Assembly: GCA_902801485.1 (NCBI GenBank)
Contig: CADCIP010000020.1
Span: 1-53,842, forward strand
Length of the DNA: 53,842 nt
Direction of reading: 5' to 3'
DNA from: an uncultured Bacteroidales bacterium
GTDB taxonomy: Bacteria; Bacteroidota; Bacteroidia; Bacteroidales; Bacteroidaceae
Shown here: piece after piece, positions 14,811 through 37,729 of the stretch
How positions within the stretch are numbered: position 1 is the stretch's first letter
How the letters are laid out: each line of letters begins with the position of its first letter
Notes under the pieces: model-generated
What the model was told of the DNA's origin: nothing
What the model saw: the letters and a program-made list of their open reading frames with translations, nothing else
Database searches by the model: none
Program-made: the position numbers and the translations under genes

Positions 14811-14812
14811 TC

Positions 14813-16198: not shown

Positions 16199-16208
16199 GA
16201 ATATTGAT

Positions 16209-16982: not shown

Positions 16983-16994
16983 AAAACATACCAG

Positions 16995-17528
16995 ATGACA
17001 TTTAGAATTACGATATTCAGTCAAGAAGTGGAAGACTTTGTAATGGAAGCCAAGATAGACGCTGAAGCAAAATTCTCAGAGCTCCACAACCTTATACTAA
17101 AAACCTGCAACTATCAGGACATGGGAAGCCACGGATTCCTCATCTGTGACGATGGATGGCATGTAAAGAACCACATACGCCAGACATGTCCCCAGGATTT
17201 CGATGCAGAGGAAGACATCAACCTTATGCAAAACACCTCCCTAAGGGACTTCCTTGATGAAGAAGGACAACGGATAGCGTACATTTTTGATCCCGAAGGT
17301 AAAAGATTTTTCTTAATGGAAATCAGTGAATTGCTATTCGGACAACCCGAGAAAGAAGGGAGAATAAGCAGGAAGCACGGATTACCACCCGAACAACAGT
17401 TAGCAGATGATTCCACTGTCCAACCCATTCCAGAATCGACAAATGCAGATACCGAGGAAGATTTTTATGGGGAAGATGATTTTGAAGAAGGTGAATTAGA
17501 CATGGAAGGATTCGAAATTGACGAATGA
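16995..17528 (+). CDS. pRiA4b ORF-3-like protein with acidic tail
   Basis: The first 120 residues or so ([44 protein letters not shown]) fit the pRiA4b ORF-3-like / TnpR-passenger domain, found beside transposons and plasmids but also in chromosomal genes. The last 45 residues are strongly acidic ([14 protein letters not shown]). Total length is 177 residues, cytoplasmic, function unknown. Its stop overlaps the ATG of miaA, so the two are co-translated. No transposase or inverted repeat is next to it, so I see no sign of recent transfer. Confidence 0.75.
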
Positions 17529-18418
17529 AACTCTTTGTCCTTTTAGGTCCGACAGCAGTAGGCAAGACAGCCTTATCGCTAAAGGTTGCAAAATTATTAG
17601 GCAGCCCCATTATCAACTGCGATAGCCGTCAGATTTACAAAGGCATGGAAATTGGAACCGCAGCCCCGACAAAAGAGCAGCTCGAAGAAGTTAAGCATTA
17701 TTTTGTAAAGATTTTAGAGCTCCAAGAATACTATAGTGCAGCACAATACGAGACTGATGTTATCCAACTTACCAACCAGCTTCAACACTCAAGTGACAAC
17801 CTGCTTCTTTCAGGGGGAAGCATGATGTACATAGACGCTGTTTGCAATGGCATTGATGACATACCAAACATAGATGCTGAAATACGAAATGATCTGAAGG
17901 AACGGCTTCAGAAAGAAGGGTTGGACTCATTAAGGCATGAACTGAAGTTGCTCGATCCAGACTATTATGACATTGTTGACCTTAAAAATCCCAAAAGAAT
18001 CGTTCACGCTTTGGAAATATGTTATACCTCAGGAAAGGCCTATTCATCCTTCCGCATTCATAAAAAGAAAGAAAGGCCTTTTCAAATAATAAAGATTGGA
18101 CTGAAAAGGGAAAGAAGCGAACTCTTCGACAGAATCAACAAAAGGGTGGATAATATGATAGAAGAAGGACTGTTGGAAGAAGCCAGAAGACTTTATCCAT
18201 ATCGACACTTGAACGCCTTAAACACAGTTGGCTACAAAGAGATTTTCCAATATTTCGACGGAGCATGGGATTTGACTTATGCAACTGAAAAAATCAAGAA
18301 GAACACCAGAGACTATGCCAAGAAACAGATGACATGGTTCGCCCACGACAACGATATACATTGGTTTTCTCCTGACAACGGGAAAGAAATAACAGACTTT
18401 ATAACAGCACATATATAA
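17525..18418 (+). CDS. miaA: tRNA dimethylallyltransferase
   Basis: MiaA adds a dimethylallyl group to A37 of tRNAs reading codons that begin with U. The 297-residue protein has a P-loop at 8-15 (GPTAVGKT), the family block [17 protein letters not shown] near 36, and the later motifs [13 protein letters not shown] and [13 protein letters not shown]. The start overlaps the preceding gene in an ATGA. It ends 8 nt before the penicillin-binding protein gene. Complete and normal in length. Confidence 0.95.
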
Positions 18419-18426
18419 TCAACGCT

Positions 18427-20926: not shown

Positions 20927-20934
20927 TAAATTTG
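20927..20934 (+). promoter_or_regulatory. Candidate -7 element of the FAS1/Sus operon
   Basis: TAAATTTG matches TAnnTTTG and lies 75 nt before the first gene. No clear -33 TTTG is seen at 19-21 nt upstream, so an activator or an alternative sigma factor may be needed. A short hairpin, GCACAT-AAA-ATGTGC, follows in the leader at 20944-20958. Confidence 0.5.
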
Positions 20935-21009
20935 CTCTGTTAAGCACATAAAATGTGCAAAAAAGTGATAAGAAACATAAATAATTTAAACTAAAATAAC
21001 ACAAAAAAA

Positions 21010-24000
21010 ATGCGTATGACAAACCCTTTAAGCAAATGGAGTAGGCAATCATCACGAATGATTTGCCTAATGGCAGCTTGCGGGCTAACGTATGCTTGTT
21101 CCGATCAGTTTATTTATGACGACCAAAAGCCGGACTGGTTGAACACGAGCATTTACGAAAGTCTGGAAAAGTCTGGCAATTTCACTACGTATCTGAGATT
21201 GCTTGCAGACGAGGACGTTAATCCCAAGAACGACGCATCGCGTAATTTAACAGACGAGTTGAAGAAAACGGGTTCTAAGACCGTCTTTGTTGCTGATGAT
21301 GCTGCATGGGAAGCGTTCTTCAAGAAAAATGCAACGCTGCCAGAAAGTAATCCTTGGCATTATGCCACATCGTACGAGAACCTGAGTGTAGCACAGAAAA
21401 AACTGATGATTCACACCAGTATGCTCAACAATGCCATCGTTATGGAAAATTTGGCAAGTAGCGAGGCTAGCGGTGATAACTCACCCACACGTGGTGAGTA
21501 CATGCGTCGTTTTACCGATGTAGCAAAAACCGACACCATCTCTTATGTTGCTTCACAGGATTTACCATACACCATGAGTCCTGTTGACAAGGACTATTGG
21601 GCACGTTTCCGTCAGGAAAACGGAGGAAATGGTATTTATTTGGTTGCTGACTCAAGCCTTACCATGATGCTCCACTTTACACAGGAGCACATGTCAAGGA
21701 ACAACATCGACAGTGATTTCGACTTCCCCAAATTTATGGGCCGCGAGCGTATTACCAGCGATGTTCACATCTATGACGCACATCTTGACAGCACTGATAT
21801 CGTTTGTCAGAACGGTTACGTAAACATGACAGAGAAGCCCCTCTGTCCATTGCCAAGTATGGCTGAAGTAATACGTACCAACGGACAGACCAACATTTTC
21901 AGCCACATGCTGGACCGTTACAGTGCTCCATACTTCAATCGTCGAATTACCGAGGATTACAAGGTACTTCACCCGGATTTCCAGGATTCTATTTTTACAA
22001 AGCGTTATATCTCAGATATGAGTGCAGGAGGTAGAGCCCTGAATTCTGAGCCAGGTCCCAGAGGTACATATACTAAGTACTATCCTTATAAATGGGCTTC
22101 CGACCAGATGCCCAAAGAATACAAGGACTACGCAGGTTCTGGAGAAGCCAGCTTAAAGTATGACCCTGCTTGGAACGAATATTACGAAGACCCACAGCAC
22201 CCCGAAAATCGCGAGAAAGACATGGCAGCCATGTTCGTGCCCAACGATTCAACCCTGTGGGACTATTTCACACGCGCCGGTGGTATGCAGTTGGTTAAAA
22301 CATATTATGTACGCGAGAAAACCGAATATCAGATTCCAAACGGTATCGTAGGCGGTAGAGGCAACGTTCACGACAGGCCCTATACCGTTCCTACCACTTA
22401 CGAGGAATTGTACGAGCAGATCGACTGTATTCCTTTGACCGTTCTGCAGAAGCTTATTAATATAATAATGTTACGCTCATTTGTCGGCTCAGTTCCCAGC
22501 AAGATGACAAAGCAGAAAGACGATGCCCTGGAGCAGTTGTTCTATCCCGAGGATATCGACAAGATTGACACATGTATCATGGCAAGCAATGGTGCTGTAT
22601 ATCTGATGAACCAGATTTACGGTCCTGCCGACTTTACTTCTGTTACAGCCCCTGCATTCATCAGTACAACCAACAAGATTATGAGTTGGGCTATTTACGA
22701 CCAGAACAAGATGGGACTTAACTACTATGCTTACCTGAAGGCTATGCAGAGTAGATTTACCTTCTTTATGCCCAGCGACGAAGGTCTTGCATGGTATTAC
22801 GACCCCACCAGCATTAAGAGTAAGACACCTCGTGTAATCGAAATGAAGTACAAGAACGTGCCATCTGGTGAAGTTGCTGTACAGGCTAACTGCTGGAAAT
22901 ACTGCGATCCCTATAAGATTAATCCTGGAGAAATCGGTTCTAGAGGACAACAGCTTGTAGGAGCTGCCGGTAAGATTGATGCAGCCGATATCACCAACCG
23001 TCTGAAGGATATTCTGGAGAGCCACACCATCGTACACGACGGAACCAACCCCATTGACGGAGAAGACGAATACTTCCTTTCTAAGAATGGTAACGCCATC
23101 AAGGTGATTCGCGACGAGGAAAACAACATCATTGGCGCCAAGGGCGGTTTCCAGATCGAGAACGAGAGAAATGGTATAACGGTTGAGAACCCTGGTGTTA
23201 CCAGTTGTAAAGTAACCGACCCATTCCCCAACCTGAAGAACGGTAGTACCTATGTATTAGGAGCCCCACTGGTTCCCACATACCGTAGTGTCTGGAGTAT
23301 TTTCACAGATGACATGAAGGAAGATGCCGCTTACAATCCTAAGGGCTATTCTGATGCTGCCTGGGAAGCAAATCCCTACAGCGCCTTCTACGACCTCTGC
23401 TCGGCAGATGCATACGAAAACGAGATTATCGGTTGCGGTCTGGTTGATGTCAAGTTGACTGACTCTGAGAAAAAGGCTGCCAAGAAGAAGTTCCTGGTCT
23501 TCACAAAGGACAATGGTCTCGACTACAACATTCAGTTCTTTAATAACTACCGCTACACCATCTTTGTTCCCACAAACGATGCTATTCGTGAAGCTATCGC
23601 AAATGGTCTGCCCACATGGGAAGATATTTACGAGGACTATCATTCACACTGTAAGCACAGAGTTAACGCTGAAACAGGAGAATGGGAAAAAGACGCTGAT
23701 GGCGAATATGAATATACCGACGAGTTGGAAACATACGAAGACAGCGTACGCATCCAAGCCAAGATTACCTATCTTACCAACTTCATCCGCTATCACTTCG
23801 CTGATAACTCTGTATTTGCAGACAAGTCGGAACTTACCGATGCTAACGGAGAAATGGTAACCTCAAGTTACGACCACGAAACAGGCCTGTTCTGCAAGAT
23901 TCACGTTGACCGTATCAAGCAGGGAGACGGTGCAGTTCTCCGTGTCTGCGACGATGTCACATACAAGCAGGATCGAAGCAACAAGATGCCTACTGTAGGA

Positions 24001-24222
24001 GAGAAGAACGTCCTGGCACGTGATATTTCATGTAACAAGGCTCCTAAAGGTATAGCCATGACTGGTGTTGTACTTGATGCATCCAGCGCTGCAGTAATTC
24101 ACCAGATCGACGGTGTACTGAATCACACAGCATTGGAAGGCGGTCGTCACGACAGCACTTGGAGCACAACGGCTAATGCAAGGAAATACATTAAGAGATA
24201 CGCCATTGTAGCAAACAAATAA
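21010..24222 (+). CDS. Large fasciclin (FAS1) domain lipoprotein, module 1
   Basis: The 1070-residue protein has a lipoprotein signal with lipobox LTYAC (lipidated Cys30), followed by SDQ, compatible with surface export. Fasciclin-like segments follow: residues about 43-150 (IYESLEKSGNFTTYLRLL, then TVFVADDAAWEAFF), one near 405 (MFVPNDSTLWDYF), one near 557-600 (FTFFMPSDEGLAWYY) and one near 840-990 (YTIFVPTNDAIREAI). These repeat the FAS1 pattern of a hydrophobic strand, an F-x-P-x-D/N turn and a helix. FAS1 domains bind proteins or glycans at cell surfaces; the ligand here is unknown. It is the first gene of the six-gene operon, 12 nt before SusC. Confidence 0.85.
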   Translation: MRMTNPLSKWSRQSSRMICLMAACGLTYACSDQFIYDDQKPDWLNTSIYESLEKSGNFTTYLRLLADEDVNPKNDASRNLTDELKKTGSKTVFVADDAAWEAFFKKNATLPESNPWHYATSYENLSVAQKKLMIHTSMLNNAIVMENLASSEASGDNSPTRGEYMRRFTDVAKTDTISYVASQDLPYTMSPVDKDYWARFRQENGGNGIYLVADSSLTMMLHFTQEHMSRNNIDSDFDFPKFMGRERITSDVHIYDAHLDSTDIVCQNGYVNMTEKPLCPLPSMAEVIRTNGQTNIFSHMLDRYSAPYFNRRITEDYKVLHPDFQDSIFTKRYISDMSAGGRALNSEPGPRGTYTKYYPYKWASDQMPKEYKDYAGSGEASLKYDPAWNEYYEDPQHPENREKDMAAMFVPNDSTLWDYFTRAGGMQLVKTYYVREKTEYQIPNGIVGGRGNVHDRPYTVPTTYEELYEQIDCIPLTVLQKLINIIMLRSFVGSVPSKMTKQKDDALEQLFYPEDIDKIDTCIMASNGAVYLMNQIYGPADFTSVTAPAFISTTNKIMSWAIYDQNKMGLNYYAYLKAMQSRFTFFMPSDEGLAWYYDPTSIKSKTPRVIEMKYKNVPSGEVAVQANCWKYCDPYKINPGEIGSRGQQLVGAAGKIDAADITNRLKDILESHTIVHDGTNPIDGEDEYFLSKNGNAIKVIRDEENNIIGAKGGFQIENERNGITVENPGVTSCKVTDPFPNLKNGSTYVLGAPLVPTYRSVWSIFTDDMKEDAAYNPKGYSDAAWEANPYSAFYDLCSADAYENEIIGCGLVDVKLTDSEKKAAKKKFLVFTKDNGLDYNIQFFNNYRYTIFVPTNDAIREAIANGLPTWEDIYEDYHSHCKHRVNAETGEWEKDADGEYEYTDELETYEDSVRIQAKITYLTNFIRYHFADNSVFADKSELTDANGEMVTSSYDHETGLFCKIHVDRIKQGDGAVLRVCDDVTYKQDRSNKMPTVGEKNVLARDISCNKAPKGIAMTGVVLDASSAAVIHQIDGVLNHTALEGGRHDSTWSTTANARKYIKRYAIVANK

Positions 24223-24234
24223 TTTACTATCACT

Positions 24235-27200
24235 ATGAATAAAATAACAAAGCTTATATTGCTATGGGTGATAGCCCTGATGGCTTTGCCCGCAAGCGCA
24301 CAGCAACGGCGTATCTCCGGTACTGTATCTGATGATATCGATGTCATCATCGGAGCCAACGTCGCAGAGTATGACAAGAACAACCGTATTGTTAGTCAGA
24401 CCGTAACTGATATGAACGGTAACTTTACCATGAATATCAAGGATCCTAACAACACCATTAAGATTTCTTATATCGGCTACCATCCGCACACGGAAAAAAT
24501 TGGTAGCAAGACCAAATTTACCGTAACACTTAAAGATGCCACTAAGACTTTAACGACCCTTGATGTTGTTGCCAAGGCAAAGGCTCCCACCACAGGTTTG
24601 GAAATCCCCGCACGTGAATATTCAGGAGCTGTACAGAAATTCAGCATGGAGGATATGGAAGGTCTCCCCTTCGAGTCTGTTGACCAGGCACTACAAGGTC
24701 AGATCGCAGGTTTGGATATCGTACCCAACTCTGGTAACCTGGGTTCCGGTACTACCATGCGTCTGCGTGGTATTACCACCATCAATGGTAACAAACAGCC
24801 TCTGATTGTCTTGAATGACCATATCTTCGAGATTCCCGACGAATACAAGGAAGAGAATTTCGAGGATTACGACAACGAGGAGCAGTTCTCTACCCTCTTG
24901 AGTGTGAACCCCGAGGATATTGAAAGTATCACCGTTCTGAAGGATGCCGCTTCAACAGCCAAGTGGGGTATGAAGGGTGCTGCCGGTGTTATCGAAATTA
25001 AGACCAAACGTGGTAAGAAAGGTAAGACACGTGTAAACTTCAGCTATAAGTTTACCGGTACTTGGCAGCCCCAAGGCTACAAGATGCTGGATGGCGACGG
25101 TTATACAATGTATATGAAGGAGTCTTACTATAACCCCTATCAGAGACCAACATCTGAATACGGACTCTTTGAATTAGACTATGACCGCTCAAAGCCAAAC
25201 ATTTACAACAACTACAACAAGAACACCGATTGGGTGAAAGAGGTAAAGCGTTTCGGACAGGAACACAGATTCTCTATTAACCTCAATGGTGGTGGCGAGA
25301 AGGCACTCTTCCGTATCAGTGCCAACTATGACAAGAGTACCGGTACTATTATTGGCCAGACCATGGACCGTTTCACTACCAATACCGCTTTGGACTATTG
25401 GGTTAGTGACCGTATCAAGTTCAGTTCTACCATCGACTTAGGTTTCTATAACAACAACAAGAACTATGGTAACGATATTCTGGACCGTGCCTATAAGGCC
25501 ATGCCTAACATGAGTGTTATGGAGTACGACTCTCAGGGTTACCTCACCGGCAACTACTTTAACATGTTGCCTCTGGCAGCCCAATACTCTACAAGTAGTA
25601 TCGGTGAAGTTCCTAATGACGGTTATCACACCTCTTATTATTTGCGTGATATGTTCAGAAACGGAAACCCCGTAGCACGTGCACGATTGGCATGGTGGAA
25701 GATGAAGCAGTACAATTTGAAGCCCCAGTTCAGCATCGAGTACAAGTTGCTGGGCAAAGATTCAGAGCACCACCGTTTGGACTATGTAGGTGACGTTGAG
25801 TTGCAGGTATTCAACACCAGTAACGACAACTACTGCCCCAGTGTGTTGAGAACCATGGATTGGGTCTGGGGTGGAGACCATGCAGCTTATTTCGCACCCA
25901 ACGACCCCATGCCCAACGAACGAAACTACGTAAGCAACGACGAGGCCAAGACCTTACAGTTCTCTACCCGTCACGACTTGCGCTACTACTCTGCTTTTGC
26001 CAACAAGGACCACAGTCTTTCTGCATTGGCCCGCTTTGAATTGGTAACAGGTAGCGGAAGTTCTCAGGCTATGGGTCTGTGGAACGTGCCCGACGGTATT
26101 ACCGATCCTTCCGTTGAAGGTTTGCTTCGCTCTGCAAGTGCAAACACAAGCGAATGGCGCAGTCAGTCTTTCTTCTTTAACACGCACTATTCCTACAAGA
26201 GCAAATATAACCTGGATGCCTCTGTACGTATAGACGGTAGCACAGGTTTCGGTTCCGGCCATAAGTACGGTACATTCCCCTCTGTTGCCGGACGTTGGAA
26301 TATCAGCGACGAGAAATTTATGGACTGGAGTGATAAATGGCTCCAAATGCTGGCTGTACGTTTCAGCTGGGGTCTCGTAGGAAATACTGGCGGTAGCGGC
26401 AGTGACCAGTACAACAAGTACAGAACAGACGGTTACTACAATGGTCACCAGGTAATTATTCCTGAAAACCTTTCTCTTACAGAACTCCGTTGGGAAAAAG
26501 TTCAGAAGTTCAACGTCGGTTTCAATTTGGAACTCTTTAATGGTCTGCTCAATTTCGATGCAGAAATCTACAACCACAAGACTACCGACCTTATCATGAA
26601 AGATCTTCGTATCTCCAGTGCCAACGGTTTCAGTACTTTAGGTCTGGTAAACGGTGGTACCATGCGTAACAAGGGTTGGGAAATCAACTTCAACACCGGT
26701 AAGATATGTAAGATTGGTAAGTTCTCCATGAAATTACGTGGAAACTTAGCACAGAACTTCAACGAGGTAGAAGAGATGAATCCTATCCTTCTTGAAAATC
26801 TGAATGGTTCCGATACCTATCAGCCAGGAAACATGGGATGGAACAGACGTGTACAGATTGGCAATGCTCTGGGTTCATTCTATGGTCTTCACTACTTAGG
26901 TGTTTACAAGTACGACTATGACCATAACGGTTACACCACCAAGTCAATTGCCGACTATGGCTATGCCGAGTACAACAACAGTGGTTACGACCGCAAGGGT
27001 AACCCCATCAATACCGCTGCTGCTGCAGCCCGTCGTGGTGATATTGCTACCTGTCCTATTGCATACGATGCAGACGGTAACATGCTTACCAATGCCAAGG
27101 GTGAGCCTCTGCCCATGTATTACTGCTACAACGAGGGATACCGCAAGAAGTTCTCCGGTGGTGATGCCATCTATGAGGATATCAACCACGATGGTCAGAT

Positions 27201-27741
27201 TGACCGTTATGATATGGTTTACCTTGGCAACTCTAACCCCAAGTGTAATGGTGGTTTCGGTATCCAGCTTTATTATGGTAAGTTCTCTATTAACGCAGGT
27301 TTCAACTTCCGTCTGGGTAACATGATTTTCAACTACGCCCGTATGGAATACGAGAGCATGTACAACAACAACAACCAGAGCTATGCAAGCACATGGCGTT
27401 GGCGTAAGAACGGCGACGAGACCGTCATTCCACGTGCCCTCAACAACTACGGAACCGGTTACAAGAGCTACAACTCTCTGATGAGCGACCGCTATATCGA
27501 AAAAGGAGACTACCTGCGTTTGCAGTATATTCAGATTAGCTACGATTTCGATGCGAAGAAGTTGAAGAAGTTCGGTATCAACAACCTCAAGTTGTTTGCC
27601 TCAGTTCAAAACCCATTCGTTTGGTCAAGGTACACGGGTGTTGATCCTGACGTATCTCCTACAGGCTATGATTGTGCAGTCGATAGAAGTAAGACTCCAC
27701 GTAACAAGTCATTCACATGCAGTTTAAACATCGGATTCTAA
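24235..27741 (+). CDS. SusC/RagA TonB-linked outer-membrane transporter, module 1
   Basis: The 1168-residue protein has a signal peptide (cleavage about SAQQ), a carboxypeptidase-D-like domain at about 25-100, a TonB plug at about 118-260 (LQGQIAGLDIVPNSGNLG, LRGITTINGNKQPLIVL, then VLKDAASTAKWGMKG) and a C-terminal barrel ending in SCSLNIGF-like aromatic sequence. The plug motif reads KWGMKGAAGVIEIKTKRG where most SusC proteins have IYGSRGANGVI. SusC forms the gated channel that SusD covers. Both neighbours are 12 nt away, so it is translated as part of the operon. Substrate not predictable. Confidence 0.94.
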   Translation: MNKITKLILLWVIALMALPASAQQRRISGTVSDDIDVIIGANVAEYDKNNRIVSQTVTDMNGNFTMNIKDPNNTIKISYIGYHPHTEKIGSKTKFTVTLKDATKTLTTLDVVAKAKAPTTGLEIPAREYSGAVQKFSMEDMEGLPFESVDQALQGQIAGLDIVPNSGNLGSGTTMRLRGITTINGNKQPLIVLNDHIFEIPDEYKEENFEDYDNEEQFSTLLSVNPEDIESITVLKDAASTAKWGMKGAAGVIEIKTKRGKKGKTRVNFSYKFTGTWQPQGYKMLDGDGYTMYMKESYYNPYQRPTSEYGLFELDYDRSKPNIYNNYNKNTDWVKEVKRFGQEHRFSINLNGGGEKALFRISANYDKSTGTIIGQTMDRFTTNTALDYWVSDRIKFSSTIDLGFYNNNKNYGNDILDRAYKAMPNMSVMEYDSQGYLTGNYFNMLPLAAQYSTSSIGEVPNDGYHTSYYLRDMFRNGNPVARARLAWWKMKQYNLKPQFSIEYKLLGKDSEHHRLDYVGDVELQVFNTSNDNYCPSVLRTMDWVWGGDHAAYFAPNDPMPNERNYVSNDEAKTLQFSTRHDLRYYSAFANKDHSLSALARFELVTGSGSSQAMGLWNVPDGITDPSVEGLLRSASANTSEWRSQSFFFNTHYSYKSKYNLDASVRIDGSTGFGSGHKYGTFPSVAGRWNISDEKFMDWSDKWLQMLAVRFSWGLVGNTGGSGSDQYNKYRTDGYYNGHQVIIPENLSLTELRWEKVQKFNVGFNLELFNGLLNFDAEIYNHKTTDLIMKDLRISSANGFSTLGLVNGGTMRNKGWEINFNTGKICKIGKFSMKLRGNLAQNFNEVEEMNPILLENLNGSDTYQPGNMGWNRRVQIGNALGSFYGLHYLGVYKYDYDHNGYTTKSIADYGYAEYNNSGYDRKGNPINTAAAAARRGDIATCPIAYDADGNMLTNAKGEPLPMYYCYNEGYRKKFSGGDAIYEDINHDGQIDRYDMVYLGNSNPKCNGGFGIQLYYGKFSINAGFNFRLGNMIFNYARMEYESMYNNNNQSYASTWRWRKNGDETVIPRALNNYGTGYKSYNSLMSDRYIEKGDYLRLQYIQISYDFDAKKLKKFGINNLKLFASVQNPFVWSRYTGVDPDVSPTGYDCAVDRSKTPRNKSFTCSLNIGF

Positions 27742-27753
27742 AATTTCAAACAG

Positions 27754-29697
27754 ATGAAAAAGATAAATCATATATACAAATCTGCCTGCTTGTTTGGATT
27801 GCTGGCTGTAGGATTAGCATCTTGCGAAGACTACCTGACAATCTATCCTACAGACCGTGTTGTTGAGGAAGACTTCTGGGAAGACTTGAATGACCTCAAT
27901 GGCGTTCGTTACGGTGCCTACAAGCAAATGGCAAGCACAGTCGAAAATATGTTCTATTGGGGCGATCTCCGTTCAGACTCCTATAAGTTGAACACTGAAA
28001 CACATTCAGAACAGGATAGCCACGATCGGTTAAGTAACATCCTGATTGGTATGCCCGACTCCAGTATGAATTGCTATGACTGGGGTGGCGTTTACAAGAC
28101 CATCAACTTTTGTAACAAGGTATTGAAGCATGGTCCTGAAGTATTGGAGAGAGACAAGCAGTTTACTACCACAGAGTGGTACTACATGCGTGCTGAGATG
28201 ACGGCACTCCGCGCTCTTAATTACTTCTACCTGATTCGTGCCTTTAAGGACGTTCCCTACACCACAAAGATTATCAACAGCGATAAAGAAGTAATAGATA
28301 CATTCCGCCTCACCAACCAGTTGGTGGTTCTGGATTCTATTATTCTGGATTGTGAGAGAGTGGCAGGTCAGGCACGTAACCGTTTTGCCAACAATGCAGA
28401 TACCAAGGGTATGATTACCAATGCTGCCATCTATGCAATGTTGGCTGATATGTACCTTTGGCGTGGTTCACTACACGAAGGCCGTGGTATAAAGAACGAT
28501 ACCGTAAAAGTGGTGAAGCCCGATGGAACTGTTGATTCTGTAGCCCATACCCCAGTAGGCGACTACGACCTGGCTGTCCAGTGGGCCGACAAAGCTTTGG
28601 AATCACACCATCGTCAGGTAGAGGATTACTTTGCATCTATGACGTTTGGCGGCTCCAGAACGGAAATCGTTTCTTATGGTTTACCCAATGTTGACCTGAT
28701 AAAGAACAATTTCACGGGTGTACACCAGAGTACCATTCCCATCCTTAGATCCCAGGACGATATATTCTATGAAGGAAACAGTATAGAAAGTATCTTTGAG
28801 TTACAGTACAGAGTGTCCGACGGTTTAAAGAACGAAATTGTCAACAACTTCTATGGTTATTCTACAAGAGCAAACCTGATGGTTGCTGAGGATGCCATGA
28901 AAGAAGCCTGCGAGAAAGACGAAAAATTACAGAAGTTCGATACCCGTCTGTGGGTCGGCTGTCAGGTTTATGTCAATGACCCCCAGGCAAAATCCGGCTA
29001 CTACTGCTTAAAGTATCAGAATCCCACATTTGTACTGGAAGGTCAGGGAGCCAATCGCAAGATTAGATACGCTTTAACCGAAGGTAACGAGAGTTACAAT
29101 AACTGGATTATCTACCGAACAACAGATGTCATGCTGATGAAGGCTGAGGCTTTGGCTTGTGCCAAGAAGGAGACGAATACAGTTAAAAGCATCCTGAATG
29201 CCATCAACCGTCGTTCTTACTGCGACATCGAGGAAGGAAAACAGCCCGCCGAAGACGGTTCAGGTACGATAGGAGACATTAAGGTGGCTTCAGACTGGTC
29301 TGGTAAGAAGGCAACGACTCCTAAGATTAACGGTTTACAGAAGACCGTTATGAACCAGCGTCAGATAGAACTCTTAGCCGAGGGAAAACGTTGGTTCGAC
29401 CTTGTTCGTCTCGCTGAGCGAATATGTAACAACAATGCCGATTCTCCCGATGAGCGCGAGAATCCTGAAGGTGTAGAAAAGGGTGAACCCGGATACGTTG
29501 GCAATGGAATGTCTGGTATGAGCGCCGTAGTAGAGTGCTTCATGCAGAACTCTGTTAGCAATTCCTATAGTACCCTGATAAACAGGTTCAAGAATCGCTG
29601 GGGTCTTTACTCTCCTATTTATGAGCAGGAAGTAAAGTCAAGCCGCGGTTATATTCTTCAGAATCCTGTATGGAACAAATCAAGATATGAACAGTAA
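27754..29697 (+). CDS. SusD/RagB nutrient-binding lipoprotein, module 1
   Basis: The 647-residue protein has a lipobox LASC (lipidated Cys24) followed by EDYLTIYPTDRV, the usual start of SusD proteins. The TPR-like helices and the C-terminal block (MNQRQIELLAEGKRWFDL) are family hallmarks: the RWFDLVR segment is near-universal in SusD/RagB. It binds substrate at the outer-membrane surface as the lid of SusC. It follows SusC by 12 nt and precedes the second fasciclin gene by 35 nt, the widest gap in the operon. Confidence 0.94.
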   Translation: MKKINHIYKSACLFGLLAVGLASCEDYLTIYPTDRVVEEDFWEDLNDLNGVRYGAYKQMASTVENMFYWGDLRSDSYKLNTETHSEQDSHDRLSNILIGMPDSSMNCYDWGGVYKTINFCNKVLKHGPEVLERDKQFTTTEWYYMRAEMTALRALNYFYLIRAFKDVPYTTKIINSDKEVIDTFRLTNQLVVLDSIILDCERVAGQARNRFANNADTKGMITNAAIYAMLADMYLWRGSLHEGRGIKNDTVKVVKPDGTVDSVAHTPVGDYDLAVQWADKALESHHRQVEDYFASMTFGGSRTEIVSYGLPNVDLIKNNFTGVHQSTIPILRSQDDIFYEGNSIESIFELQYRVSDGLKNEIVNNFYGYSTRANLMVAEDAMKEACEKDEKLQKFDTRLWVGCQVYVNDPQAKSGYYCLKYQNPTFVLEGQGANRKIRYALTEGNESYNNWIIYRTTDVMLMKAEALACAKKETNTVKSILNAINRRSYCDIEEGKQPAEDGSGTIGDIKVASDWSGKKATTPKINGLQKTVMNQRQIELLAEGKRWFDLVRLAERICNNNADSPDERENPEGVEKGEPGYVGNGMSGMSAVVECFMQNSVSNSYSTLINRFKNRWGLYSPIYEQEVKSSRGYILQNPVWNKSRYEQ

Positions 29698-29732
29698 GTT
29701 GGTATAAACAGGAATTTAAAGAAATATCAAAT

Positions 29733-31760
29733 ATGGCTAACAATAAAATCAAAAAATACATTGGAGCAGTTGCTTTGGGAACTGTCATTCTGGCAGTGCC
29801 CAGTTGCTCTGATGATCACTTCGACGTTAACTACGGAGGTGACAACAATTCTCCTATTGCTACTAAGACACTGTGGGAGCTCATTAACGAGAACCCCAAT
29901 CTGAGTAGATTCAAGACGATAGCAGAAACGGCAAAGTATTGGAAAGACGAAAACCATCCCGTTCAGAACTGGACATTTGCCGATGTACTGAAGAGCGGAC
30001 AGTTGGCTACTGTATGGGCTCCGGAAAATGATTCTTTCACAGAAGCAGAGTACCAGAATCTTTTACAGAGATGCGAGACTGACGGCTACAATTTACAGCA
30101 GCAGTTCATCAACAACCACATGGCTCTCTGGCGCAAGAATATCTCTGACCCAGGTATTGATACCATCAAGATGATGAACGGAAAGAATCTGATCTTCGAT
30201 AAGGCAGATACCGCCAAATGCACAATTCAGGGTGTTACGATTAACAAGAAGAACATTGCCGCCCTGAACGGTACGTTGCATACTATCAAAGGGACTACCC
30301 CCTTCCACTACAATTTCTATGAATATCTGAAGTTCAGTCCGTCGCTACCACTGATGTCTGCATACGTTGTATCCAAGGACACTACAGAGTTCTTCAAAGA
30401 AGCCAGTATAGAAGGACTACCCGACAAAGATGGTAACCCCTCATACGTGGACAGTGTGTACAGGACCACAAACATCCTGTTTGAAAGACACTCATACACA
30501 CCCAATTCAGGTGCTGAGACATGGGATATGCCTCAGGAGTGTTTCGATGCACGTATCAACCAAGAAGACTCTGCCTTCATCATGGTTATGCCTACAGATG
30601 CAGCCTGGACTGCTGCAAAACAAAAGATCGGAAGTCTTTACAAGTATCCCGAGAAGTATGAAGACAAGATAAAGGGAAACGACGGTACTTCCTCGATTCG
30701 TACCATCGCAGATCCCGACTCCCTGGCAAATATGAGTATCAACATGGATCTTACCACCCCATTGGTATTTAATGTAAACAAGCAGCCCAAGGTTGGCAGC
30801 AAGCTCTGGACACTGGAAGATTTCATAGCTAATAAGGGAGCTACTGCAGAATACCTGCTGAATACATACGGAGATACACTGCGTAATATCACCGACTCTA
30901 CATATACCTGGGACAAGACCAGCATCTTTAATGGTAAATTGGTTGAAATGAGTAACGGTTATGCTTACGAGGCAAACGAGTGGGCCTTCCCAAGAGCTCT
31001 GTATAATCCCGATGTTGAAGTTGAAATAGACGGTACAAATGCATTCTATTATACCACCAGTCCTTCTTACTACAAGTTGGGCTCTGATGCAAGAACCATC
31101 AGTTTCAACAACACCCTCTATTCAGAAATTGCCGACAAGTACGGACACGTAAGTCGTAACAACTTCTACTATTTGGCAGCTCCTGGCCCAACAGCCAACC
31201 CACATGTAGAGATTAAGTTGTTGGGCAACCTTGCCAGCACCTCTCCAGTAGTAACATACGGACAGCAAGCACAGGTGATGAGTGGAAAGTACGATATCTA
31301 TGTCGTATGCGTTCCTTACTGGTATCGTTTAATTTCTGATAATGGAGGTATTGGCGATGACTTTTACACATGGGAGATAGTAGAGGAAGGAGAAGATGAA
31401 ATCAAAACGGTAAAAGGCATAAACCAGCAATACATCGACTCTATTTCCGCTATTACAAAACAGACCTTCTGGGGTCAGATTCGCTACAACAACAATGCTG
31501 CCAACGGCAAGGATATTACCAGCAAGAAGTCATCTAATATAGAATATGACGGTACAAAGGTTGATACCCTCCTGGTGTTCGAAGACTTTGAGTTCCCATA
31601 CTCTTACAAGAACCTGACCTATAGCTATCCTACCCTGATTCTTGAAGGAGCTACTAAGAGTGCTACCGCAAAGAAGGGATTCATTTACCACATGTTTATA
31701 GACCGCGTAATTCTGAAAAGTAAGGAAACCGGTGAAGAAACAATTCTCGACCCTCAGTAA
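29733..31760 (+). CDS. Fasciclin (FAS1) domain lipoprotein, module 2
   Basis: The 675-residue protein has lipobox VPSC (lipidated Cys25) followed by SDDHFD, close to the S-D-D type surface-export signal of Bacteroidetes lipoproteins. A FAS1-like region at about 48-190 (LWELINENPNLSRFKTI, VWAPENDSFTEAEY, then AALNGTLHTIKG) is clear, and another follows at about 195-400 (FIMVMPTDAAWTAAK). The C-terminal part, with conserved aromatics, is unassigned. It holds the same place before a SusC gene as the 1070-residue protein, but is shorter, so the modules are homologous yet diverged. Likely a surface binding protein; ligand unknown. Confidence 0.83.
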   Translation: MANNKIKKYIGAVALGTVILAVPSCSDDHFDVNYGGDNNSPIATKTLWELINENPNLSRFKTIAETAKYWKDENHPVQNWTFADVLKSGQLATVWAPENDSFTEAEYQNLLQRCETDGYNLQQQFINNHMALWRKNISDPGIDTIKMMNGKNLIFDKADTAKCTIQGVTINKKNIAALNGTLHTIKGTTPFHYNFYEYLKFSPSLPLMSAYVVSKDTTEFFKEASIEGLPDKDGNPSYVDSVYRTTNILFERHSYTPNSGAETWDMPQECFDARINQEDSAFIMVMPTDAAWTAAKQKIGSLYKYPEKYEDKIKGNDGTSSIRTIADPDSLANMSINMDLTTPLVFNVNKQPKVGSKLWTLEDFIANKGATAEYLLNTYGDTLRNITDSTYTWDKTSIFNGKLVEMSNGYAYEANEWAFPRALYNPDVEVEIDGTNAFYYTTSPSYYKLGSDARTISFNNTLYSEIADKYGHVSRNNFYYLAAPGPTANPHVEIKLLGNLASTSPVVTYGQQAQVMSGKYDIYVVCVPYWYRLISDNGGIGDDFYTWEIVEEGEDEIKTVKGINQQYIDSISAITKQTFWGQIRYNNNAANGKDITSKKSSNIEYDGTKVDTLLVFEDFEFPYSYKNLTYSYPTLILEGATKSATAKKGFIYHMFIDRVILKSKETGEETILDPQ

Positions 31761-31769
31761 ACCATTACA

Positions 31770-34700
31770 ATGATGAAAAAGATATTAAGTGATACATTCA
31801 TGCACAAGACACTGAAAACAGGTCTGTGTTTCCTGTTGCTTTCCGGTTTGAGCATTCCCAGCGTTTATGCGCAGGATGAAGTGGAAAGTACCGAAGGAGA
31901 AGAAGAAGAGGTTGTCGTACGGAAGGCTCCCAAAAAGCCAGAGAAAGTGTACGAGACAAGAACGGTGAAGGGTGTTGTCACCGATGAGGCAACCGGTGAG
32001 CCAATGGGTGGTGTACGTATTCAGGCCTTAGGTCTGGCAAGATACTCTACACTGACTGAGGATGATGGTTCCTATACCCTCGACATCCCCGTTTTCTCTG
32101 ATGCTGTTTATGCTTACGCTGAAGGTTATAATCCCGTTCAGTGTGCAGTTAAAAACGGTGAAGCAAATATAAAACTTATTGATACCAGTTTCAACGTGTT
32201 CTACACAGAAGGTACTACCATTACCGCACAGAAGACAATCAAATTGGACGAGACCAGCAGTATCAGTGTCGATGAAGACATTGAAAAGAAACTGGCAGGT
32301 GATATCCATACCGTTCTGCGTAATGGTACACCCGGTATCGGTAACTTCATGACAATCCGTGGTGTTAACTCAATCAATGCCAATGTGCAGCCCCTGATTA
32401 TCCTGGACGGCAATATTCTGGATGCCCAGTATGACAGAATGGCTACGCACGAAGGTTTCTTCAACAACCTGCTTGCCGGTATAGACCCAGAGAACATCGA
32501 GTCTGTCCAAGTGCTGAAGAACGGAACGGCACTGTATGGTGCCAAGGGTGGTAACGGTGTTATCCTCATCAATACCAAGCGTGGAAAGAGTATGGCAACC
32601 AAGATTAATCTCCGTATCTACGGCGGTGTTGAACTTATGCCTTCTACTCTGCCCGTACTGAATGGAGACCAGTACTCAACTTATCTGAGTGACGTTATCA
32701 GCAGTCTGGACAATATCAGAGTTAATAATCTTACCAATGTTCCCTTCTTGGATAAGAGTCCATCGAACTACTACCGTAAGATATACAGCAATAACGAAAA
32801 CTGGCAGGACGGCCTTTACCGGACAGCCGCTACCCAGAATTACAAACTGAGTGTAGAAGGTGGAGATGATGTCGGTATGTATGCCCTCTCTTTGGGTTAT
32901 GCATCCAGCAAAGCCAATGCCAAGGGTACAGGAATGAACCGCCTGAACCTGCGTTTCAACACGGACATTGAGATATTCCCGAAACTGAAAACAGGTTTGG
33001 ATATTGCATACAACCAGGTAAGTTACGATTTATTGGATCAGGGTTGGAGCGAGGACTACTCTATGCAGAACATCGGTTCTCCCAACGTGCTGGGCGTAGT
33101 GCAGGCTCCATTCATCAGCAGGTACGCCTACTATTATGACGAGAACTCAACAGATCCCATTCCATCCAATCGTCTGAAGCTCTCTAATGAATATGCAGGT
33201 AAGTATGCTTCCGAGGGTGGTAACTATGTGGTGAACCCCTTCCAGTTTAACGACTATATTGGTAACACACGTTTGAACGAGTCACTGCGTAACCCTTACT
33301 GGATTCTTCGGAATGGTGACGGTAAGACAAAGAACTACGCTCAGAATACAGTTATCGATATCAACGTTAGTCCTAAGTGGCAGGTTACAAGAACCTTCAG
33401 CATCAGTGACCGTTTCAACTTCCAGATGAACCGTAACAACGAGAAGTACTTCCTTCCTGTCAACGGTACGACACCTTACTTCCTGCAGGATTTAGGTTAC
33501 ATCGACAGTATGCAGAAGACACTCTTCTCCAAGGAGACCACTCTTAACAACGATCTGCGTCTGGAGTGGGCCAAGAACTACGGAGCACATACTGTAGATA
33601 TATTTGGAGGCTGGCGCTATAACAAATTCTCGTTCAGTTACAACTACATGAGCGGTTATAACAACGAGAACGATAAACTGCCCATCATCAACAAGAACAT
33701 GGACTACATCAACTACGGTGGCACCAACGACGAATGGTCTGATATGACCTACTACCTGAATGCAGGCTATAACTTCAAGAACCGTTACTTTGCAGAGTTT
33801 GCTTTAAGTGCTCAGTCTGCAAGCCGCTTCGGAGAAAATACCAAGTCTGGTATCAAGGCATTTGGCGTTAGCTGGGGTATCTTCCCATCACTGCAATTAG
33901 GCTGGCTCATCAGCAACGAGAAATGGTTCAAAGCCAAAGCCGTTAACTACCTGAAACTGACAGCCGGTGTGGATATGAGCGGTAACGATGACCTCGACTA
34001 CTATGCTGCACGTACCTACTGGGAAAGCCAGCGAGTTACCCACACAACAGTAGGTCTCTACCTCAAGAATATTGCCAACAGCGGTATTCAGTGGGAGACA
34101 ACCACAAAGTGGAACATTGGTTTGCAGGGAAGCTTCCTGAACAACCGTTTGCAGGCAGGCATCGACATCTACTGGCATAAGACAGACAACCTGCTAACCC
34201 AAAAGGAGCTTAGCTATGTATCTGGTATGACTCAGTACTGGACCAATGAGGGTCAGCTTAAAAACAAGGGTGTTGAATTTAACATCAATGCTGCTATTAT
34301 TAACAAGAAGGACTGGAAGTGGGAATTGGGCGCTACCCTTGGACATTACAGAAACAAGATTACCGACTTACCCGTCAGTCTGAGCAACATCATGACACTT
34401 TCGGATGTTAATGGCAACAACGTACAGGTCATCCACGGCTATACCAATAGCGTTTATGGCAAGGATAATATCCTTACCGCTGTTGGCGAGGCTGTAGGCA
34501 GCTTCTATGGATGGCAGACAGCCGGCGTATTCTCTAAAGATGAAGAAGCAAGTCAGGCAGGTAAACTGGGCTACCTGAAATATCCTACCGGCATTGCTGA
34601 TGAAAACAAGAAATATGCCAACTTCCAGGCCGGTGACGTTCACTTTATTGACCAGAACGGTGACGGAGTCATCGACGATGCCGACAAGGTTGTCCTTGGC

Positions 34701-35207
34701 AACCCCCACCCCGATATCTACGGTAACATCTTCACCAGTCTATCCTGGAAGAACCTCCGTTTGGATATGAACTTCAAGTACAGCATTGGTAACGATATTT
34801 ACAACTACCAGCGCTCAAGAATTGAAGGTATGAATACCACCTACAACCAGAGCACAGCCGTATTACGCCGCTGGACATACGAAGGTCAGAATACCGATAT
34901 GCCTCGTGCTAGCTTTGCTAATACAGAAGACTGGCGCAACAATGAACGTATGTCTGACCGTTGGATTGAAAACGGCAGCTACCTGAAGTTGAAGAACGTT
35001 CGCCTTACCTATAAGATACCCTATTCTAACAGCTGGCTGTTAGGTCTGAAGGTATGGGGTGAAGCCAACAACCTATTCACTTTAACCAAGTATTTGGGAA
35101 CAGATCCCGAGATGAGCAGCCACAATGGTATTCTCTATCAGGGTATCGACACAGGCCTGATTCCAAGAGGCCGCAGTTTCAACTTTGGTGTAACCATCAA
35201 CCTGTAA
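31770..35207 (+). CDS. SusC/RagA TonB-linked outer-membrane transporter, module 2
   Basis: The 1145-residue protein has a signal peptide ending near VYAQDE. Between it and the carboxypeptidase-D-like domain (about 70-145) lies an unusual linker of roughly 30 residues, first acidic (ESTEGEEEEVVV) and then basic (RKAPKKPEKV). The plug spans about 165-275 (LRNGTPGIGNFMTIRGVN, QVLKNGTALYGAKGGNGVI) and the barrel ends in FNFGVTINL. It is a SusC paralogue of module 1 with low visible similarity outside the motifs. The start MMKK has two adjacent Met codons. It is 9 nt after the fasciclin gene and 18 nt before SusD. Confidence 0.94.
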   Translation: MMKKILSDTFMHKTLKTGLCFLLLSGLSIPSVYAQDEVESTEGEEEEVVVRKAPKKPEKVYETRTVKGVVTDEATGEPMGGVRIQALGLARYSTLTEDDGSYTLDIPVFSDAVYAYAEGYNPVQCAVKNGEANIKLIDTSFNVFYTEGTTITAQKTIKLDETSSISVDEDIEKKLAGDIHTVLRNGTPGIGNFMTIRGVNSINANVQPLIILDGNILDAQYDRMATHEGFFNNLLAGIDPENIESVQVLKNGTALYGAKGGNGVILINTKRGKSMATKINLRIYGGVELMPSTLPVLNGDQYSTYLSDVISSLDNIRVNNLTNVPFLDKSPSNYYRKIYSNNENWQDGLYRTAATQNYKLSVEGGDDVGMYALSLGYASSKANAKGTGMNRLNLRFNTDIEIFPKLKTGLDIAYNQVSYDLLDQGWSEDYSMQNIGSPNVLGVVQAPFISRYAYYYDENSTDPIPSNRLKLSNEYAGKYASEGGNYVVNPFQFNDYIGNTRLNESLRNPYWILRNGDGKTKNYAQNTVIDINVSPKWQVTRTFSISDRFNFQMNRNNEKYFLPVNGTTPYFLQDLGYIDSMQKTLFSKETTLNNDLRLEWAKNYGAHTVDIFGGWRYNKFSFSYNYMSGYNNENDKLPIINKNMDYINYGGTNDEWSDMTYYLNAGYNFKNRYFAEFALSAQSASRFGENTKSGIKAFGVSWGIFPSLQLGWLISNEKWFKAKAVNYLKLTAGVDMSGNDDLDYYAARTYWESQRVTHTTVGLYLKNIANSGIQWETTTKWNIGLQGSFLNNRLQAGIDIYWHKTDNLLTQKELSYVSGMTQYWTNEGQLKNKGVEFNINAAIINKKDWKWELGATLGHYRNKITDLPVSLSNIMTLSDVNGNNVQVIHGYTNSVYGKDNILTAVGEAVGSFYGWQTAGVFSKDEEASQAGKLGYLKYPTGIADENKKYANFQAGDVHFIDQNGDGVIDDADKVVLGNPHPDIYGNIFTSLSWKNLRLDMNFKYSIGNDIYNYQRSRIEGMNTTYNQSTAVLRRWTYEGQNTDMPRASFANTEDWRNNERMSDRWIENGSYLKLKNVRLTYKIPYSNSWLLGLKVWGEANNLFTLTKYLGTDPEMSSHNGILYQGIDTGLIPRGRSFNFGVTINL

Positions 35208-35225
35208 TCAGAAGAATATAAGATT

Positions 35226-37676
35226 ATGAAAAGGAAATCAATTATAAGCTTGCTTATCTGCAGCATGACACTGGGTATGATGAATACATCATGCAAGGAC
35301 ATGCTGACACCAGATAGTGAACGCCACTCATACGAAGTGGCTCAGGATACCCTGTATTCCTATTGGGGTATTCTAAAGTCTTTGCAGAATATTGCAGAGC
35401 GTTATGTGATTCTCAACGAGTGTCGCGGTGACCTGATAGAAGGAACCTCTTATGTAAGTGACACCATTGCTGCCATCATCAACTTTGGTAAGGGCTACGA
35501 AGACAAGTACAAAGACGGTGCTTGCGCATACCTGAAGGTTAGCGATTACTATCACGTGATTAACAGCTGTAATGCCTATATTGCCCAATGCGATACAGCC
35601 AGAATGATTTCAACCGGCCAGCAGAAAAGATACATGCTGCAAGAGTGCGCCCAGATTCACGCCATTCGTGCTTGGGTTTATATGCAGCTCATATATGCTT
35701 ACGGCAAAGTTCCCTTCTACAAGAATCCTTTGCTTACCACGGATGACATCAACAAATTCATCACTGATCCCAACCACGAGACAGCTGATGCCAAGACACT
35801 GGCAGACAAACTGGGTCCCGACTTGGAGGAAATATATGCCAAGCTTGATCCCGAGGATATGTTCCCACAATACGACGAATACGAAGGCGTTTGCCATAGT
35901 ATGCGTGTAATGTTCCCCTTGGACGTTGTTATTGGTGATGTATATCTGATGCAGGGCGACGAAGCAGCATGCAAAAAAGCTGCCAGCTATTATTACAAGT
36001 TCCTGAATTCTAAGTTCTGCGGTCCTCTGGAAACAACCAATTATATTAGTTTAGGTGACCGTGTAGCAAACATCGATGATCCCCAGTACGGTTTCTATGG
36101 AGGTGTTCCCTTCAACGAGACAACACATTCTTTAACAGGCGGACGTTACCGTCATGAAGCCATCACCTGTATCCCCAGTAATAAAGGACGTTTGGATGGC
36201 CACGTATTTACCGACATCAACCGCTTGTTCGGTTTCGAAGCAACCCTGAGATCATCTGGTAGCGGTATTGCCGATGAAGATGCCAAGGCAACTACTTCAT
36301 CTGTTACGCTGAATTACCGCGATAACGGTTATCGCCGTGAGCTCGTCCCCAGCAGGGGCTATGAGGCTTTGTGCGACAGCCAGAAGTACGAGTGCTATAT
36401 CGGCTCCAGCTCAAGTGGTACTGAAGCATATCAGGAACTCGCCGTACTGCCCGATGTTGGCGATGCACGCCGAGTATGGATTTACAATACATCAAGCAGT
36501 CTAAGAGGTGCTGTTTTACTCACGCCTCATAGCGAGCAGTATCGCCTGCCTGTCGGTGACAATACACAGTATGGTAAGCTCATCAGCAAACAAAATCCGA
36601 ATGGTGCATTCAGCACTGTATTCCCAATGGTATATCGCAAGTCAACCATCTGGTTGCGTTTTGCAGAGGCAATCAACCGTGCCGGCTTCCCCAGCTATGC
36701 ATTTGCCATCCTAAAGAACGGTCTGGTCAGCAACCATAATATGTGGTTCCCCGCCAATGTAGAAGAAGAGGACTATCAGAATAGGCCATTTAGCTATCTT
36801 ACCGGTGCCAGTGGTTTGGACTATGGCGTAAAGGATTCTGTCTTCGTTTATTTAGAAGAAGATAATGACACATCTTTAGTATGGGGCTTGCCAGGATATG
36901 ACCCGGACGTTAAAGATTACATAACCTCATTTAGCGACCTGAAGACATACGTCGAAGCCAAATATCAGGCAATAGCAGATGCCATTAACGACACTATTAC
37001 AACAGGAGAAACAGTTGAACCAAAGGCATTTAACTTTGCTTCGGCAGGCTTCTTTGCAAAGACATTCAACAACTATCCTTCAGAAGCCTGCCAGAAGGCA
37101 CTCTGGTACTTGGATCGCCGTGAGGTAAGAAAGGCTGCTTCTACAGAATTCCTGAACTTCAATAACCGCCCCTATCTGCGTGGTTACACAGGATCTATAA
37201 ATCCTCTCTACAAAAGGAATATATACGATATCTCAGGATATCATCTGGCAGAAGCTTATAACCTGAACAACACATCTTCTGAATCCGATTTCTTAACCAT
37301 CGGTGTTCACGCACGTGGCTGCGGTATCCTTAAGCCAGACGATCCTGAACGTTGGAGTTCTTATGACTACGTGAAACTGGTTACCAAGAAGATCAAGGAG
37401 AACCATGGCATAACCGTAACTCAAGAGCAGATTTATGACGGTTCATACGATGAGTGGGTAAAAGAAGCTGTTGAAGACCTTATTATCGATGAGGATGCTC
37501 TGGAGCTCGCCTTCGAGGGTTGCCGTTTCTCAGACTTGGCTCGTGTTGCTATCCGTCGCGGTGACAACAGTTTCCTGGCAAAACACGTTGCAAAGCGTAA
37601 GGGGACTATAGATATGGAGATGTACAATATGCTTCTGAACCAGGATAGCTGGTACCTCCCCTTCCCTTCTGAATAA
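35226..37676 (+). CDS. SusD/RagB-like lipoprotein, module 2 (long)
   Basis: The 816-residue protein has lipobox NTSC (lipidated Cys23), then KDMLTPDS. The SusD pattern is visible in the N-terminal helical region (ECAQIHAIRAWVYMQLIYAYGKVPF) and in the C-terminal LELAFEGCRFSDLARVA block, which corresponds to the E-G-x-R-W-F-D-L motif of SusD with Cys-Arg-Phe-Ser in place of the usual residues. It is about 200 residues longer than a typical SusD, the extra length lying mainly in the middle. It is the last gene of the operon and is followed by a strong terminator. Confidence 0.9.
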   Translation: MKRKSIISLLICSMTLGMMNTSCKDMLTPDSERHSYEVAQDTLYSYWGILKSLQNIAERYVILNECRGDLIEGTSYVSDTIAAIINFGKGYEDKYKDGACAYLKVSDYYHVINSCNAYIAQCDTARMISTGQQKRYMLQECAQIHAIRAWVYMQLIYAYGKVPFYKNPLLTTDDINKFITDPNHETADAKTLADKLGPDLEEIYAKLDPEDMFPQYDEYEGVCHSMRVMFPLDVVIGDVYLMQGDEAACKKAASYYYKFLNSKFCGPLETTNYISLGDRVANIDDPQYGFYGGVPFNETTHSLTGGRYRHEAITCIPSNKGRLDGHVFTDINRLFGFEATLRSSGSGIADEDAKATTSSVTLNYRDNGYRRELVPSRGYEALCDSQKYECYIGSSSSGTEAYQELAVLPDVGDARRVWIYNTSSSLRGAVLLTPHSEQYRLPVGDNTQYGKLISKQNPNGAFSTVFPMVYRKSTIWLRFAEAINRAGFPSYAFAILKNGLVSNHNMWFPANVEEEDYQNRPFSYLTGASGLDYGVKDSVFVYLEEDNDTSLVWGLPGYDPDVKDYITSFSDLKTYVEAKYQAIADAINDTITTGETVEPKAFNFASAGFFAKTFNNYPSEACQKALWYLDRREVRKAASTEFLNFNNRPYLRGYTGSINPLYKRNIYDISGYHLAEAYNLNNTSSESDFLTIGVHARGCGILKPDDPERWSSYDYVKLVTKKIKENHGITVTQEQIYDGSYDEWVKEAVEDLIIDEDALELAFEGCRFSDLARVAIRRGDNSFLAKHVAKRKGTIDMEMYNMLLNQDSWYLPFPSE

Positions 37677-37695
37677 AATCCATATTGATAATAGG

Positions 37696-37729
37696 AAGAG
37701 CGCCCGGAGCAATCCGAGCGCTCTTTTTT
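37696..37729 (+). terminator. Intrinsic terminator of the FAS1/Sus operon
   Basis: AAGAGCGC-C-CGGA pairs with TCCG-A-GCGCTCTT across a GCAA loop, with one C/A mismatch, then a T run to 37729. It sits 20 nt after the last SusD stop. Confidence 0.88.

Follow-up and report, generated by a model that had tools for sequence, protein, structure and literature searches.

The stretch of DNA considered here, called the window throughout, is the 53,842 nucleotides (nt) of contig CADCIP010000020.1 (assembly GCA_902801485.1) from an uncultured Bacteroidales bacterium of the Bacteroidaceae. Positions 21010-37676 encode six proteins on the + strand, in which a fasciclin-type (FAS1) lipoprotein, a SusC-type TonB-dependent transporter and a SusD-type lipoprotein follow one another twice, and which we call F1, C1, D1, F2, C2 and D2. 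Judged by comparison with related genomes, the window has six of the seven genes of an old unit, F1-C1-D1-(FX)-F2-C2-D2, whose two SusC classes appear to be anciently distinct and to have been inherited and duplicated together. We think it likely that the unit makes a twin SusCD import machine in the outer membrane, with FAS1 lipoproteins as its surface glycan-binding parts. Bacteroidota of the gut and rumen use SusCD systems as a main route to nutrients from fibre. Should two different SusCD pairs and FAS1 scaffolds operate as one machine, complex plant glycans would be handled by a new kind of surface architecture, and a large group of bacterial FAS1 proteins that now lack an explanation would gain a role. 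The unit is ordinary in its general purpose and unusual in its architecture and degree of conservation.

Six genes and their families

A first-pass annotation made from the window alone had described six closely spaced open reading frames (ORFs) of the order FAS1-SusC-SusD, twice over, and coordinates and family scores both bear this out. The ORFs are intact and are separated, from F1 to D2, by 12, 12, 35, 9 and 18 nt, each SusC having its SusD directly downstream. F1 (21010..24222, 1070 aa) reaches 35.9 bits with the FAS1 family PF02469 (cut-off 22 bits), though no individual stretch clears the threshold alone, and it models like the four-FAS1 proteins periostin and TGFBIp. F2 (29733..31760) scores 31.4 bits with the same family and is predicted to have two FAS1 domains followed by a C-terminal CBM35/CBM6-like sandwich at residues of about 425-666; for both proteins the PF02469 assignment agrees with the modelled fold. 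C1 (24235..27741) scores 638 bits with TIGR04056 (cut-off 368) and 47.6 bits with TIGR04057 (cut-off 46.2), and has plug and carboxypeptidase-regulatory-like domains in addition. C2 (31770..35207), of the second class, is above the cut-off for TIGR04056 at 559 bits and below it for TIGR04057 at 38.7 bits. D1 (27754..29697) matches PF07980 with 71.8 bits (cut-off 23.1) and also PF14322. Only the diverged D2 (35226..37676) falls slightly short of the PF07980 cut-off, at 22.2 bits, and a profile built from 13 D2 relatives matches solved SusD homologues with E = 5e-12. By the lipobox rules as we assume them, F1, D1, F2 and D2 all have a late signal-sequence cysteine in a lipobox-like setting (LASC at Cys24 in D1, NTSC at Cys23 in D2), and the lipoproteins, and with them the machine, are presumably located at the cell surface.

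Against the nearest relative, genome G152 (G, C and L numbers are our handles for genomes, contigs and loci), the six genes have NG86 dN/dS values of 0.09-0.17, with dS at 0.93-1.71 and so near saturation; these values indicate that all six are kept under purifying selection. Because of these ratios, and because the gene order recurs in distant genomes, the arrangement appears to be more than chance.

Descent and distribution of the seven-gene unit

All homologous loci were selected by F1 or F2 matches. A FAS1 gene beside a SusCD pair is not peculiar to this strain, a possibility that the first-pass annotation had allowed for; the FAS1-SusCD order recurs across genomes. F2 relatives are present in 120 of 201 genomes of the window's family, and F1 matches in 149 of 398 fairly complete ones, so that the unit is common there and far from universal. 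In the window's genus, eight further loci show both halves in full, one (G110) is cut at the end of its stretch, and one (G180) is a short contig end only. The gene of a third FAS1 lipoprotein, FX, separates D1 from F2 in G095, G138, G078 and G110 and is missing from the window, G152, G194, G010, G166 and G060; this seventh gene is not visible from the window alone. In other genera of the family, 20 loci retain the order with two detection exceptions, F1 being missing at a contig start in one and F2 masked by a reverse ORF in the other. In the large genomes of genus g3 (3.4-7.0 Mb), all 12 loci read have the seven genes; G637 contributes two of these loci, and the count excludes one matching genome, G716.

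Farther out, a scan of named genomes anchored on F2 took forward the best 80 of 142 relatives, from Prevotella, Paraprevotella, Alloprevotella rava, Prevotellamassilia timonensis and uncultured Bacteroidaceae and Prevotellaceae; two records named Clostridium and Roseburia are probably mislabelled bins. The genes share one strand in 80 of 80 loci, and their order agrees in all of them as far as the DNA reaches. The unit is complete in 61 (49 of these with FX), 16 are cut at one end of the locus, and the remaining three have D2 as two ORFs and are also cut (L093), have an F2 that the ORF picker left uncalled (L110) or have two FX genes (L130). Among 295 genomes from across the order, 32 have matches to F2 profiles and 31 to F1 profiles. 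Both are found in 25 genomes, in 20 of them with F1 8-11 kb upstream on the same contig and strand and in 5 on separate contigs. Gene order was read in 20 stretches and in 8 more divergent ones, which with the window's family cover 14 numbered families, and the core C1-D1-...-F2-C2-D2 is invariant wherever visible; all 8 divergent loci follow the order F1-C1-D1-(FX)-F2-C2-D2, with one gene uncalled by BLAST or the ORF picker in two of them. F1 or FX is displaced in a few copies (twice on G307 C7, once each on G310 C13 and G488 C64), and G277 and G380 have an additional FX. The two units on G307 C7 (L194-L195) are both complete, with shuffled F1 and FX positions, and flank one 1457-aa hybrid-sensor-like gene.

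The next point of interest is whether the two halves are copies of one module, as the first-pass annotation took them to be. Instead, the halves appear to represent two SusC classes of old standing that were passed on jointly. A tree of 80 SusC proteins gives C1 and C2 each a clade of its own with full support and places four other SusC proteins of this genome, and three from the neighborhoods of modules, outside both clades. Distances among C1 proteins mirror those among C2 proteins over 34 modules with r = 0.90, a value reached by 0 of 5000 permutations, and genomes with several modules have both SusC classes in each. A recent tandem duplication of one module was considered and is ruled out by the SusC trees and by the joint C1+C2 tree.

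Co-inheritance fits joint action of the two pairs, which may also be in physical contact. The same operon could, as a somewhat doubtful possibility, serve two independent importers, C1-D1 and C2-D2, which would take in different fragments with their own FAS1 partners and share transcription only. The earlier suggestion of diverged copies, perhaps with different substrates, leads the same way, and its first half stands, since C1 and C2 are just 26% identical over 555 aa and belong to separate clades. Two SusCD pairs are moreover described within single arabinan, homogalacturonan and rhamnogalacturonan-I loci in the available part of PMC8002723. Independence does not sit well with the presence of C1 in 76 of the 80 F2-anchored loci, the other 4 apparently starting too late to show it, or with paralogous copies within one genome that hold both classes.

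Enzymes, regulators and the likely substrate

Flanks of homologous units were scanned through 50 chosen proteins (30 plus 20), three of which are module FAS1 proteins and one FX; six had no Pfam family at the threshold used. Predicted GH115, MFS_2 and GH10 proteins flank the unit of G310 C54, GH10 that of G022, GH30 and an esterase that of G033, GH30 that of G137, GH43 those of G024 and G310 C33 (the latter together with PL11), GH51 those of G417 and G131, GH28 that of G155, GH95 that of G364, and GH106, GH39 and an alginate-lyase-like protein that of G310 C13. The G417 unit is flanked as well by a hybrid two-component sensor; by BLAST, seven further contexts have relatives of this sensor next to units, though one of the seven is a two-component pair only. 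The first unit of G637 adjoins PL11, GH105/88, GH95, GH28, a GDSL esterase and GH106, and the second is near PL11, a PL9 protein with a BT_4170-like domain, two GH28 proteins and a hybrid sensor. PL11 is immediately downstream of the unit in G608, and a pectate lyase is upstream of it in G177. Going by assigned families, homologous units adjoin enzymes of xylan type (GH10, GH115, GH30, GH43) or of rhamnogalacturonan type (PL11, PL9, GH105/88, GH106, GH28). The view that such modules are free of enzymes and regulators by nature is not supported; the first-pass annotation had itself named such neighbors of homologous loci as evidence that would tell against its reading. This is also a caution against labelling such operons orphan adhesion systems on the basis of a single genome.

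These flanks make it unlikely that the unit is a RagAB-like importer of peptides or glycoproteins whose FAS1 domains bind protein ligands: the characterised flank enzymes of homologues are carbohydrate-active, and no peptidase family turned up among the scanned proteins, which are a chosen part of the flanks. That explanation draws on the window having no linked glycan enzyme, on SusC clades for polypeptides reported in the accessible part of PMC7661554, and on the solved relatives of C1 and C2, which are SusC homologues and include RagA (best chain 8aa4, E = 4e-80 for C1 and 3e-75 for C2). RagAB and the other solved SusCD systems are, judged by their chain names, not twin systems with FAS1 lipoproteins.

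Within the operon itself, the first-pass annotation was right that hydrolases and regulators are missing. No carbohydrate-active enzyme lies in or next to it, the nearest, a NAGLU gene, being seven genes downstream at 45759, and GH10 is absent among the window neighbors scanned. No dedicated regulator (hybrid two-component sensor, SusR-like or ECF/anti-sigma) occurs among the operon proteins and neighbors scanned, and the Reg_prop sensor, the one type searched for genome-wide, has no match in this genome, which is 85% complete. This lack appears to be lineage-specific. Among 33 genus genomes with an F2 match, a GH43-like gene is upstream of F1 in 16 and a Glyco_hydro_cc gene in 9, and neither is there in any of the 11 genomes whose F2 is at least 50% identical to the window's; in these counts, G515 and G507 carry enzymes and F2 on separate contigs and G502 is a fragment. 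On the simplest history, the locus would once have been complete, and enzymes and FX would have been lost from it with both transporters retained. That makes the window's lineage a natural test of uncoupling, with the importer retained and the local enzymes, the sensor and one subunit gone. Unlinked enzymes had been proposed as partners, and this genome has candidates in a GH43-like homologue (C3:73108-74016, 70% identity) beside GH92 and a Glyco_hydro_cc homologue (C6:83681-85291, 51% identity) beside GH95 and GH36. It has 6 SusC proteins above the cut-off, two of them C1 and C2.

FX has a history of its own. Six further FAS1 genes elsewhere in this genome (L008-L013, on C10, C53, C42, C11, C27 and C32) are FX relatives, none of them adjoining a SusC gene, and they nest with the operon FX of the genus in a clade supported at 100/100. 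This genome has 7 FX-type matches (these six and a seventh on C56), G060 has 22, G521 24 and G496 28, and each of the 31 genomes searched has at least one. In the window's genus, FX-type genes appear to have moved out of the operon and expanded in number. The six dispersed copies are near genes for GH20, corrin-biosynthesis, alpha-2-macroglobulin, CotH and dockerin-bearing proteins.

To place the substrate, we depend on the joint C1+C2 tree, in which the units fall into two fully supported halves, one containing the g3 units of rhamnogalacturonan type and the other the window. The window belongs to a 17-row clade in which the neighbors vary (Glyco_hydro_cc, GH43-like, GH51, GH28 or none). The sister group of that clade comprises the xylan-type units and G310 C33 with its PL11, and the rhamnogalacturonan-type units are a deeper clade, so that pectin and xylan are both near. 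The substrate class is probably a complex glycan of plant-cell-wall type.

Two SusCD pairs with the surface binding protein BT4167 are described for the rhamnogalacturonan-I locus of B. thetaiotaomicron in the accessible text of PMC8002723, and two pairs also in arabinan, homogalacturonan and xylan systems (PMC8002723; PMC7848910; both available in part). The rhamnogalacturonan-I locus (BT4164/65, BT4167, BT4168/69) is like the window in its two pairs and in having BT4167 at the place of F2, and as far as that source describes it the layout leaves one gene, 4166, at the place of FX. On this analogy of layout, not of BT sequences, the genes of the unit may be counterparts of BT4164-BT4169. Relatives with genomes of 6.0-6.5 Mb have the full FAS1 unit beside PL11, the BT_4170-like PL9 protein, GH28 and other pectin enzymes, whereas the window's copy has no nearby enzymes, hybrid sensor or FX. 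Put as an order C-D-x-SGBP-C-D (SGBP, surface glycan-binding protein) with PL9/PL11, the window has C-D-SGBP-like-C-D without x or the lyases, and the homologues have the whole. The cluster xusA-xusB-xusC-xusD-xusE-xyn10C likewise has tandem SusC/SusD pairs, and the enzyme types beside the sister units of the window's clade recall this xylan system; the likeness is one of description, not sequence, and the description, as available in part, has no FAS1 gene between the pairs. In the partly accessible open-licence literature on fasciclin with SusCD or TonB, we came across no account of the FAS1 make-up, of the constancy of the seven genes or of the version without enzymes.

Proposed mechanism and genomic setting

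In the import machine as we picture it, two TonB-dependent barrels, C1 and C2, would each be lidded by their own SusD, D1 and D2. F1 would form a long four-FAS1 scaffold at the cell surface, and F2, with its two FAS1 domains and CBM-like domain, would be a surface glycan-binding protein. F2 and the SusD lids would catch oligosaccharides from a complex glycan, probably of plant-cell-wall type, and both barrels would draw them in. The ancestral unit would have had FX and linked enzymes, and in many lineages a hybrid two-component sensor. FX and the enzymes would then have left the operon in the window's lineage, the machine being retained under purifying selection, and with these gone the stripped machine would rely on unlinked enzymes or on fragments released by others. 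That the FAS1 proteins replace the usual surface glycan-binding proteins, as the first-pass annotation had it, is plausible given the predicted CBM35/CBM6-like domain of F2 and its position matching that of BT4167, as far as the source describes that locus.

Several points weigh against this picture. SusC proteins can transport peptides, and FAS1 domains often bind proteins. Proteins that are simply inherited together can give mirror trees as well, with no need to touch. Since F1 or F2 matches were the basis for picking loci, the order counts presuppose those genes, and F1 and FX swap position in a few loci. The CBM-like region of F2 is modelled partly with low confidence, and similar sandwiches that are not carbohydrate-binding score almost as high. 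Lastly, having no linked enzyme or regulator, the window offers no direct clue to its substrate.

A stronger form, which we put forward tentatively, is that the seven genes might be an obligate hetero-twin uptake machine, FAS1-based instead of SusE/F-type, in which two different SusCD pairs are joined by three FAS1 lipoproteins. It would predate the families in which it occurs and have been redeployed whole with varied enzyme sets for pectin, xylan and other glycans, the window's genus having lost the enzymes and FX, with FX now an independent family of surface proteins.

An adhesion or surface-matrix system with the FAS1 proteins as its active part seems very unlikely, since two complete transporter pairs under strong purifying selection would be unneeded for adhesion; it would account for F1 being modelled like matrix proteins and for the expansion of FX-type genes in the genus. 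Periostin and TGFBIp are four-FAS1 matrix proteins, whereas F1 and F2 are bacterial lipoproteins in a transporter operon and F2 carries the added CBM-like domain. Least credible of all is a housekeeping outer-membrane assembly system recalling the Bacteroidota assembly machinery (BAM) with its surface lipoproteins: several family members do have the unit next to one and the same cluster of envelope genes, but it was found in just 149 of 398 fairly complete family genomes, and the BAM subunits given in the available parts of two 2025 papers are the FadL-like BamG and the lipoproteins BamH-K, not SusC or FAS1 proteins, for which reason we dropped it.

The C-terminal part of F2 also turns up elsewhere in this genome. 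Residues 414-675 recur at 58% identity in an 807-aa BspA-type leucine-rich-repeat protein (L063:3445-5865, contig C3), so the CBM-like domain is reused outside the operon. A second F2-like stretch (residues 243-670) is in a 443-aa ORF with no Pfam family (L062:8930-10258, contig C28), where the F2 match contains two in-frame TAA codons. A search of solved structures with an F2 relative from a pectin locus gave 0 matches.

Upstream of the operon, the motif TAAATTTG (20927..20934, + strand) is located 72-87 nt ahead of F1 in 6 of 6 genus loci compared, and we take it to be a -7-type promoter element of consensus TAnnTTTG. The strict two-part Bacteroides promoter pattern has no match ahead of F1, TAAATTTG having no strict upstream TTTG partner, and a sigma-70 scan listed nothing on the + strand in that region. 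Just after the motif, a perfect inverted repeat, GCACAT-AAA-ATGTGC (20944..20958), is a possible operator or hairpin; it is shared by the window and G152 and absent from the other 4 of the six loci. Behind D2 is a predicted intrinsic terminator hairpin with a T run (37693..37728, + strand) of -22.5 kcal/mol (z -4.1), a stability matched by 1 of 200 shuffles. The conserved motif and the hairpin agree with the one promoter and one terminator claimed earlier; a single transcript start for the six genes can only be inferred, because a penicillin-binding protein gene on the same strand ends 165 nt upstream.

That gene, of class A, is one of those at 13761-20844, the others being presumably lpxD, lpxC/fabZ, lpxA and miaA. 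Several other genera also have these genes next to the unit, either before or after it, so its chromosomal place is old. Farther downstream in the window, a single 1216-aa ORF (48207-51857) combines BspA-type leucine-rich repeats with a tyrosine phosphatase domain.

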